A DNA stretch of 64,000 bases from Chloroflexota bacterium (GTDB taxonomy: Bacteria > Chloroflexota > Chloroflexia > Chloroflexales > Herpetosiphonaceae), in contig JAIUOC010000006.1 in assembly GCA_020161265.1 (NCBI GenBank), forward strand, positions 124,001 to 188,000. The letters run 5' to 3'. A model generated the notes under the pieces. The model did not search any database. It worked only from the letters and a program-made list of their open reading frames with translations, and was not told the origin of the DNA. The position numbers and the translations under genes were made by a program. Of this stretch, positions 25,360-27,969 are shown in pieces (the first letter of the stretch is position 1; every line of letters begins with the position of its first letter).

Positions 25360-25755
25360 TTAATCAACGAGTTTTGGCCGGAATTTATAGCCATAGACCA
25401 ACAAATCATCGTCGCCGACCTTACCCCAACTGCGGGTCACGGCTTCCATCGCCATGCCAATCTGTAACTCGCTTGGCTCACAATCGGTTAATTGAGCAGT
25501 GAGCATACAACCATCAGCCAGCTTGATCATGCCGACAAGTACGATTGGCTCGTGGTCGAATTCGCTACGATTGCTGCGCTGCGCCGTCCACGAATAGAGT
25601 TCGCCAGTGCTGGCTAATTGATAAGGCTGCCAAGCGTCGCTGGCCTCGCCCAATTTGGCTGGCTGAGCCGGAAAACGCACCCGACCATCGCTATGGCGCT
25701 GGCCTTCGAGACGGTAGCGTTGGCCTTTGAGTCGCCATTGTTTTGGTAAATTCAT
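25360..25755 (-). CDS. DUF35/OB-fold acyl-CoA partner protein without zinc-ribbon cysteines
   Basis: A 131-residue DUF35 (OB-fold, Zn-ribbon) protein, the partner of thiolase/HMG-CoA-synthase-like enzymes in archaea. The helix-plus-ribbon region is recognisable (GRVRFPAQPAKLGEA) but all four cysteines that normally bind zinc or structure the ribbon are absent; the OB-fold (YSWTAQRSN, VGMIKLADG) remains. Its ATG directly follows the stop of the thiolase-like gene, so the pair is cotranslated. Probably binds CoA substrates or bridges the enzymes. Confidence 0.85.
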   Translation of the reverse strand: MNLPKQWRLKGQRYRLEGQRHSDGRVRFPAQPAKLGEASDAWQPYQLASTGELYSWTAQRSNRSEFDHEPIVLVGMIKLADGCMLTAQLTDCEPSELQIGMAMEAVTRSWGKVGDDDLLVYGYKFRPKLVD

Positions 25756-26910
25756 CTAGACCTCCGCTACTTGCAAAATATGAGTCACGGCAGTTGCCCC
25801 AACGCCACCCAAGCATTGGGCCAGCGCAGTTTTGGCATTGGCAATTTGGTTGGCTCCGGCTTGGCCGCGCAATTGGGCCACTAACTCAACTACTTGATAG
25901 ACTCCGGTCGCGCCACCAACATCACCACGAGCTTTGTAACCGCCAGCAGTTGCCAAAGGCAATGCCCCATCCTTGGCAATTACACCTTCGGCGGCCAGTT
26001 GCGTAGCTTGGCCACGTTCAGCATAACCAAGTGCCTCTAAGCTCAGAGCAGCGGCAATTCCATGCGGGTCGCTTAATTCGATAATATTGATGGCATCGCG
26101 TTTGAGTTTAGCTTGTTGCAAAGCGTTGTTACCACTGGCTGCTGCCGCTTCAAGCCACAACAAATCAGACCGTTGCGCCAAGGCAACGTTGCTGCTGCTG
26201 GTTGCGCTGCCCACAATTGCGATTGGCTGCGCTACTTCGCGGGCATAGCGTTGGCTAACCAACACCACTGCTGCTGCACCATCGGCCACGGTTGAGCAAT
26301 CGAGCATATTCAATGGCTCGGCAATTTGGCCTGCATTGGCCCATTTCTGGGCATTGATTGCAAAGCGATACAGCGCATGGCGATTGCCCGCCCCATTAGT
26401 ATGAGCATTAACCGCAAATGGCGCGAAGGCGGTGGCTGGCAATTGATATTCATGCAAATAACGTTGCATCAACAGTGCCCAAGCCCCAGTTAATGTCAGC
26501 CCAAGTGCCCGTTCAAGTTCGCCATCCAAGCCCAAGGCCAAGGCAGCTTGCAAGGCGGCATCGAGTTTGTCGGTGGCTTTTTCGACACCTAGCACGACCA
26601 CGACATCGGCTTGGCCGCTGGCAATTGCCAAATAACCTTGGCGCAACGCCAATGCGCCGCTAGCGCCAGCCGCTTCAACCCGCACAGCCTCACAGTTCAA
26701 GCCAGCCGCACCAGCGATATACGCGCCTAGTTGGCTTTGCTCGCTCAGCGTATCGCCTAGCGCATTGCCAACATACAAAGCCTGAATTAAATTTGGGTCA
26801 AGCGTCCCAACCGCGCCGTGCAGCGCCTCTAACGCCAAATCCAGTAATGAACGATCATAATGTTCGCGAACGGCGGTGCAAGCTGTGCCTGCAATAAAAA
26901 CCTGTTGCAT
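25756..26910 (-). CDS. SCP2-type thiolase-like protein with lost catalytic residues
   Basis: A 384-residue thiolase-fold protein of the archaeal acetoacetyl-CoA thiolase type. The usual VEAACASG is VEAAGASG here (Gly for the nucleophilic Cys; GGC codon read directly). The HDAF-type His motif reads ELSDPHG, and the GHP motif near the C-terminus reads ARGDVGGATG. So all three catalytic sites are altered, while the fold (EALYVGNALG-type start, GVEKATD, CLGGVGA) is kept. It may be a non-catalytic channel or scaffold, or a lyase as in Ltp2-DUF35 aldolases. Middle gene of the cluster. Confidence 0.87.
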   Translation of the reverse strand: MQQVFIAGTACTAVREHYDRSLLDLALEALHGAVGTLDPNLIQALYVGNALGDTLSEQSQLGAYIAGAAGLNCEAVRVEAAGASGALALRQGYLAIASGQADVVVVLGVEKATDKLDAALQAALALGLDGELERALGLTLTGAWALLMQRYLHEYQLPATAFAPFAVNAHTNGAGNRHALYRFAINAQKWANAGQIAEPLNMLDCSTVADGAAAVVLVSQRYAREVAQPIAIVGSATSSSNVALAQRSDLLWLEAAAASGNNALQQAKLKRDAINIIELSDPHGIAAALSLEALGYAERGQATQLAAEGVIAKDGALPLATAGGYKARGDVGGATGVYQVVELVAQLRGQAGANQIANAKTALAQCLGGVGATAVTHILQVAEV

Positions 26911-26922
26911 GCTCCTACCCCT

Positions 26923-27969
26923 TTACTCAACAATTTTGCCGCGCCACTTGGCATAGGTGGCATAATCGATTAATTGCCGACGTTTGAGATAGGCGCTGGT
27001 GGGTGGTGCTAAATGACGAGCCGTTGCCAAAGCCTCAGTTACCACCAACGAATAGGCATCGCTGCCAGCCCCACTGCCATAGGAAGCCAGCAAAATGCGG
27101 TCGCCAGCTTGAGCCACATCGAGCACAGCACATAAACCAATCATCGAGGCTGCCGAATAGCTGTTGCCAATTTCGCCCGCCAACAAGCCCGCTTGGCATT
27201 GTTCTGGAGCAAAACCCACCTGTTTCGCGACAGTTTGCGGGAATTTAACATTCGGTTGGTGAAACACAGCATATTGATAATCGGCAGCAGTGCGGCCTAA
27301 TTCGGCCAACAATTGCTTGGCCGCAGTGCTGACATGGTGAAAATAGGCTGGCTCGCCGGTAAAGCGATTGCCATGCATCGGATAAGGCCGATCGGCGCGG
27401 CGAAAGAAATCAGGGGTATCAGAAACATACGAAAGGGTGGCTTCAATGGTGGCGATCGCTTGTTGAGCTGGCCCGACGATCAACGCTCCAGCAGCGGCAG
27501 CAGCGGTATATTCCAAGGCATCACCTGGCCGACCTTGGGCCGTATCAGCGCCAATTGCCAGCACATAATCGGCCATGCCACTGCCAACCAAGCCCATGCC
27601 TGCGCTCAAGGCTTCGGTGCCAGCTTTACAGGCAAATTCCCAATCGGCGGCGCTGATCCAGCGCGATGTGCCTAGGGCTTCAGCGACCAATGTGCCGCTG
27701 GGTTTGACGCTATAGGGGTGGCTTTCGCTGCCAACCCACACAGCGGCTAATTGCTGTGGGTCGATTTGGGCGCGATTGAGCGCATTCCGACCTGCTTCAA
27801 TCGCCATGGTAATAGTATCTTCATCGGGGCCAGGCACACTTTTTGATGTAATTGGCAATGCTCCTTCGCCAGCGGCCCATACTCGAGCAATCTCTTGGGC
27901 TGCAATTCGATAGCGCGGAACATATGCTCCATACCCAACGATCCCAACTGGACGTTCAGGTTGACGCAT
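26923..27969 (-). CDS. Hydroxymethylglutaryl-CoA synthase, archaeal type
   Basis: It condenses acetyl-CoA with acetoacetyl-CoA to HMG-CoA, the entry to the mevalonate pathway of isoprenoid synthesis. The catalytic Cys ([11 protein letters not shown]), Glu ([11 protein letters not shown]), His (FHQPN) and the [11 protein letters not shown] loop are intact, unlike those of the next gene. 348 residues matches archaeal enzymes. First gene of the cluster with a thiolase-like and a DUF35 protein, an arrangement that in archaea forms one complex passing acetoacetyl-CoA directly. Confidence 0.92.

Follow-up and report, generated by a model that had tools for sequence, protein, structure and literature searches.

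A thiolase-like protein (P0001) encoded in the archaeal-type HMG-CoA synthase (HMGS) cluster of a Herpetosiphon genome lacks the nucleophilic Cys and both catalytic His residues of thiolases, and is probably a pseudothiolase, retained beside HMGS as a non-catalytic subunit for the complex and for a shared CoA site. The gene lies in a 64,000-nt stretch of DNA (the window) from a genome of 6.04 Mb in 13 contigs, of which the nearest named relative was Herpetosiphon aurantiacus DSM 785 (98% identity). It is flanked by the genes for HMGS (P0002) and a DUF35 protein (P0003), all three on the same strand and closely spaced, an arrangement that places a thiolase-fold subunit with an archaeal-type HMGS and DUF35. 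For each of the three products, chains of the archaeal complex structure 6esq ranked first or second among PDB sequence matches. Features were located in the window as follows:

25756..26910, minus strand: P0001, putative pseudothiolase of 384 aa, a thiolase-fold subunit without catalytic residues (alignments, family matches, AF2 model).
26923..27969, minus strand: P0002, archaeal-type HMG-CoA synthase with Glu82, Cys114 and His237 kept (TIGR00748, 6esq_I, motif table).
25360..25755, minus strand: P0003, DUF35 / ChsH2-like OB-fold protein (PF01796, 1.1e-12; 6esq_E, 3.7e-13).
26656..26679, minus strand: VEAAGASG, with Gly82 at the nucleophile Cys position (alignment to 6esq/7yvy; weighted frequency of Gly in Chloroflexales, 99%).
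26479..26481, minus strand: Trp144 (100% of Chloroflexales) in place of an Asn144 that does not vary among the intact Chloroflexota relatives.
26062..26073, minus strand: S-D-P-H at residues 280-283, replacing H-D-A/C-F; His283 does not vary within the order.
25918..25932, minus strand: ARGDV, with Asp330 at the GHP His (Asp in 97% of the order).
25813..25815, minus strand: Cys366 at the CxG position near the C terminus (intact relatives have Asn; the order has Cys, Ser, Thr or Val).
25645..25695, minus strand: DUF35 region of the lost C4 zinc ribbon (comparison of CCCC counts given below).

P0001 was matched to family PF22691 (Thiolase_C_1, 6e-37), and its best PDB sequence matches were 7yvy (7e-76) followed by 6esq (5.6e-56). 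In alignment to both structures, the CxS loop VEAACASG was replaced by VEAAGASG (C82G), the HDAF loop VHD[AC]F by LSDPH (H280S, A282P, F283H) and the GHP loop ARGHPVGATG by ARGDVGGATG (H330D). The nucleophilic Cys, the HD[AC]F His and the GHP His that define a catalytic archaeal-type acetoacetyl-CoA thiolase are thus Gly82, Ser280 and Asp330 here, which bears out the claim of the initial annotation that all three catalytic motifs had been lost. P0001 also fell below two NCBIfam cut-offs (AcCoTHIOL_METTL, 287.8 vs 600 bits; PRK06064, 342.9 vs 420 bits). At a fourth loop P0001 reads AQCLGG, whereas archaeal and intact relatives read xxNxGG, placing Cys366 at the CxG position; several relatives have Ser, Thr or Val there, Chloroflexus having Ser. 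Chance or sequencing error was excluded because the same letters were read in every other Herpetosiphon genome (5 of 5) and the change extends across the order, and a local pseudogene was likewise ruled out by conservation across the order together with dN/dS.

The neighbouring HMGS, described as intact from the outset, proved to be so. P0002 scored 504.8 bits against TIGR00748 (curated cut-off 353.35), as expected of an archaeal HMG-CoA synthase, and 401.6 bits (2.9e-119) against 6esq_I, and its active-site residues Glu82, Cys114 and His237 were all kept. HMGS columns 53, 104, 122, 125, 201, 265 and 266 differed with the state of the partner; no clear mechanism emerged from them. Strong matches to P0002-type HMGS and to P0001 were found in nearly the same set of genomes; six genomes (G040, G042, G049, G054, G055, G058) had neither, and one (G061) had HMGS with no P0001 match. 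Searches with PF08540 and TIGR01835 for a replacement HMGS in the genomes without P0002 returned one partial match only (G054). Three of these drafts (G049, G055 and G040, 95-100% complete) carried HMG-CoA reductase (HMGR) with no recognisable HMGS of either type and no 1-deoxyxylulose-5-phosphate reductoisomerase (DXR), and the HMGR neighbourhoods of G040 and G049 were read without an HMGS/thiolase/DUF35 block.

HMGR was present in 77/82 genomes and lay near HMGS in most order-mates; in the Herpetosiphon genome its gene (G000:C6:325974-327083) is ~174 kb from the HMGS cluster. A search for DXR found none but two 36-residue matches, and the class has been reported to be without the DXP pathway and to run the mevalonate pathway (PMC3857490). 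With no MEP pathway, HMGS has to work and should be essential. The initial annotation had advised looking for another thiolase in the genome. PF02803 thiolases were found in 79 of the 82 genomes of the order, and the CxS, NEAF, GHP and CxG motifs were all kept in three of them in the window genome and in eleven from low-copy genomes. One genome (G071, 92% complete) contained the pseudothiolase gene with no PF02803 match, possibly an assembly gap. To judge by their motifs, these classical thiolases encoded elsewhere can supply acetoacetyl-CoA.

In the archaeal complex, as outlined for the M. thermolithotrophicus structure (PMC6392133, PMC12329534), CoA is bound at an interface formed by residues from all three proteins. 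We infer by analogy that P0001 remains in a complex with HMGS and DUF35 and contributes to the CoA site at their interface. On the most economical reading, P0001 would complete the CoA site of HMGS and the complex, the thiolase reaction having moved to a separate enzyme. A separate classical thiolase would make acetoacetyl-CoA, which would enter the complex from solution and be held by its CoA part at the shared site; the HMGS active site would be the only one used, and a two-site channel would have become a one-site complex. Loss of the catalytic residues from a gene that is kept under selection suggests that HMGS, in Chloroflexales and in many other Chloroflexota, still needs a catalytically dead thiolase as a partner in making the precursor of all isoprenoids.

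A search of 158 genomes from the class turned up P0001 relatives in 98, among them every genome of the same genus. The nucleophile Cys was absent from every scorable Chloroflexales orthologue examined, among them those of Herpetosiphon, Chloroflexus, Chloroploca, Oscillochloris, Roseiflexus and Kouleothrix. Across the order the motifs read [VI]EAxGA[SA]GG, [ST]D[PQ]H and GGxKARG[DN], small deviations aside; a few orthologues retain the initial His of HDAF. The Chloroflexales orthologues formed one clade (SH-aLRT 100), and their frames were open and full-length except for fragments at contig ends. Ten columns had switched from one conserved residue to another between intact Chloroflexota relatives and Chloroflexales, including C82G, N144W, F181Y, A282P, F283H and H330D, and conservation of the remodelled pocket within the order was 0.99 for Gly82, 1.0 for Trp144, Tyr181 and His283, and 0.97 for Asp330.

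A pocket this close to invariant counts against a pure scaffold, in which drift at these positions might have been expected. Given how little the new residues vary, there is some chance, though a small one, that Gly82, Trp144, Tyr181, Asp281, His283 and Asp330 make up a working site for a reaction novel to the thiolase fold, or a sensor of CoA or acetoacetyl-CoA that gates HMGS; if so, an early step of the order's only isoprenoid route would depend on a re-invented thiolase subunit. The enzymatic form of this idea, in which the same six residues run a new acyl-CoA reaction that is coupled to HMGS, such as hydrolysis, proofreading or a different C-C step, draws on the near-invariant type-II switches at active-site columns and on the SCP2-thiolase fold having repeatedly gained new chemistry (Ltp2, Sal, PhlC). 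It is nonetheless improbable, as there is no conserved nucleophile (Cys366 being Ser, Thr or Val in several genera), the thiolase subunit evolves faster, and the surrounding pathway is unchanged, with HMGR adjacent in most order-mates and HMGS intact.

A change overlooked in the initial annotation was found in the DUF35 protein. P0003 lacks all four Cys of the zinc ribbon that is expected of DUF35 in an HMGS/thiolase/DUF35 complex, and the C4 ribbon (CCCC) was kept in 0/19 Chloroflexales DUF35 proteins vs 29/29 from intact clusters. DUF35 proteins beside the Cys-less thiolases of other Chloroflexota had the C4 ribbon in 10 of 10 readable cases. P0003 was modelled by AF2 with moderate confidence (pLDDT 80, <50 for the first 13 residues), and the model gave little information on the lost ribbon. 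In the Sal complex the cleft on the thiolase side is shaped by the zinc ribbon of DUF35 (PMC12329534); that the ribbon is gone from the lineage whose thiolase site is the most heavily changed is in keeping with this, as a correlation.

Conservation outside the order was surveyed in 400 Chloroflexota genomes, with motifs inspected at 68 loci and a tree built of 100 rows. Other Chloroflexota yielded a further set of thiolases that are adjacent to HMGS and lack the Cys (VEAA[GD]ASGG, CEAGQASGG, IEAAEASGG), in which GHP had mostly become GFP, GNP or GFA and HDAF was kept. This set and the Chloroflexales sequences fell on a single Cys-less branch of 40 rows (SH-aLRT 97 in the 100-row tree), a clade that may be inflated by long-branch attraction among fast-evolving rows. 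A single origin for all Cys-less members was rejected by the AU test (p 0.003) once a pair of MAG sequences (L158/L165), which had lost the Cys independently, was included. The HMGS tree gave 4 changes, 1 of them forced, and bears on the 40-row clade neither for nor against. All rows of the Cys-less branch but one were beside HMGS, vs 28/56 intact members; the exception (L232) had no HMGS in a 5-kb stretch. Among non-Chloroflexales rows, 21 Cys-less members were beside HMGS and 1 was not, vs 28 and 28 for intact members (Fisher p 1.6e-4, only indicative because the rows are related and not phylogenetically independent). Members adjacent to HMGS were either intact or Cys-less, and five non-Chloroflexales genomes (G162, G183, G207, G250, G481) carried a Cys-less HMGS-linked copy and an intact copy elsewhere.

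Further variants were recorded in the survey. Two HMGS-linked, Cys-less sequences (L213 and L235, one genome each) have YDDF and YDAY where HDAF would stand, like the Tyr motif of Ltp2/Sal. A separate thiolase-like subfamily away from HMGS (L067, L068, L069, L212, L220, L221) has Thr for Cys (V[EKR]AATATGA) with HDAF and GHP kept. Fen MAGs titled Myxococcales (L135, L136, L139, L141, L142, L144) contained an intact Chloroflexota-like HMGS/thiolase/DUF35 cluster, possibly through horizontal transfer or a binning error, and two contigs titled Thermoflexus hugenholtzii JAD2 carried a Chloroflexales-type (L150) and an Anaerolineae-type cluster (L165), so that at least one title is probably wrong.

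The initial annotation had allowed for Cys and His placed elsewhere in the active site. Cys366 does lie in the CxG loop, with His283 three residues past the lost His, and an acetoacetyl-CoA thiolase kept active by these two residues could be imagined on that basis; no conserved replacement was found, Cys366 being variable, and a relocated catalytic Cys at this position was rejected for that reason. Such an enzyme is very unlikely also because the acyl-accepting Cys of the CxS loop is Gly, the zinc ribbon of DUF35 is gone, and Cys-less kin exist that lack the new residues (HDAF kept, GFP or GNP).

The AF2 model of P0001 (pLDDT 94.7) fitted the thiolase of the archaeal complex best (6et9/6esq; Z 62.6, rmsd 1.2-1.3 Å, 380 residues aligned to 6et9_C), the thiolase fold extending over the whole chain. 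The model also matched the DUF35-bound aldolases Ltp2-ChsH2 and Sal-Shy (6OK1, 9MYR; Z 48), which share with the Herpetosiphon cluster a thiolase fold bound to DUF35 and altered thiolase catalytic residues. A retro-aldolase of this type is scarcely credible for P0001, for the fit to 6esq is far better, the partner genes differ, and the cluster contains HMGS and, in order-mates, HMGR. The catalytic Tyr (motif YDHF in Ltp2, YDCY in Sal; PMC12329534) is missing from P0001, which has SDPH at the YD[HC][FY] column, and is mostly Ser or Thr in the order; an Ltp2/Sal aldolase was rejected on this residue. It had been suggested that the protein is either a scaffold or the site of a new C-C bond reaction. 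The scaffold half fits the linkage to an intact HMGS that has to work, the thiolases elsewhere and purifying selection at a faster rate of change than in HMGS; the retro-aldol half found no support, given the absent Tyr and HMGR nearby in most of the order.

Within Herpetosiphon, dN/dS was 0.061 for P0001, 0.062 for DUF35 and 0.026 for HMGS; P0001 is under purifying selection and is evolving faster than HMGS. The thiolase/HMGS divergence ratio was 1.66 in altered clusters vs 0.94 in intact ones, and the DUF35/HMGS ratio 1.63 vs 1.06; at equal HMGS distance, divergence in altered relative to intact clusters was ~1.5 to 2x for the thiolase and ~1.2 to 1.7x for DUF35. Constraint on the thiolase and DUF35 has relaxed in step and has not been lifted. 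A decaying, functionless gene carried along in the operon would explain the accelerated divergence, but is the least credible reading, given that dN/dS is 0.06 within Herpetosiphon, that the orthologues keep open, full-length frames, that the new residues are near-invariant and that the gene stays with HMGS across the order.

The reading of P0001 as a non-catalytic partner of HMGS was set beside known systems. The archaeal HMGS/thiolase/DUF35 complex (6esq), a model case of channelling via a shared CoA site, has the same three genes and folds; since the Herpetosiphon thiolase is without the Cys and both His and its DUF35 is without the zinc ribbon, thiolase-to-HMGS channelling as in the archaeal complex cannot work there. 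The closest PDB sequence relative of P0001, the Pyrococcus furiosus thiolase PFC_04095 (7YVY, 43% identity), keeps the Cys, HDAF and GHP, unlike P0001. The multicomponent acyltransferases PhlABC and MucABC (5M3K, 9VBO) have the same architecture of HMGS-like, thiolase-like and DUF35 subunits, and in PhlABC one enzyme-fold subunit stands outside acyl transfer, only PhlC residues acting (PMC6392133). The HMGS-like PhlA has Gly for Cys (FACKAGT to FAGKSGT), and PhlABC is thus the mirror image of the Herpetosiphon cluster: there PhlA is without its Cys and the thiolase-like PhlC is active, whereas here the thiolase would be silent and HMGS is intact. Taken with PhlABC, the cluster suggests that either half of a paired-enzyme scaffold can fall silent and yet stay in the complex.

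A literature search that covered few subscription papers returned no earlier account of a thiolase without activity in HMGS complexes or Chloroflexi. The survey provides a natural series of one cluster, with an intact thiolase in Anaerolineae and Thermoflexia, a Cys-less thiolase with the ribbon kept in other Chloroflexota and, in Chloroflexales, complete remodelling of the thiolase together with loss of the ribbon. With this series one can test whether HMGS depends on the thiolase as a protein or on the reaction that it catalyses. The label 'acetyl-CoA acetyltransferase' is probably wrong as a functional description of the Cys-less thiolase genes. In Chloroflexus islandicus a gene for a 210-aa hydrophobic protein (L133 5356-5988) lies between the pseudothiolase and DUF35 genes, and a similar gap was seen in several order-mates.
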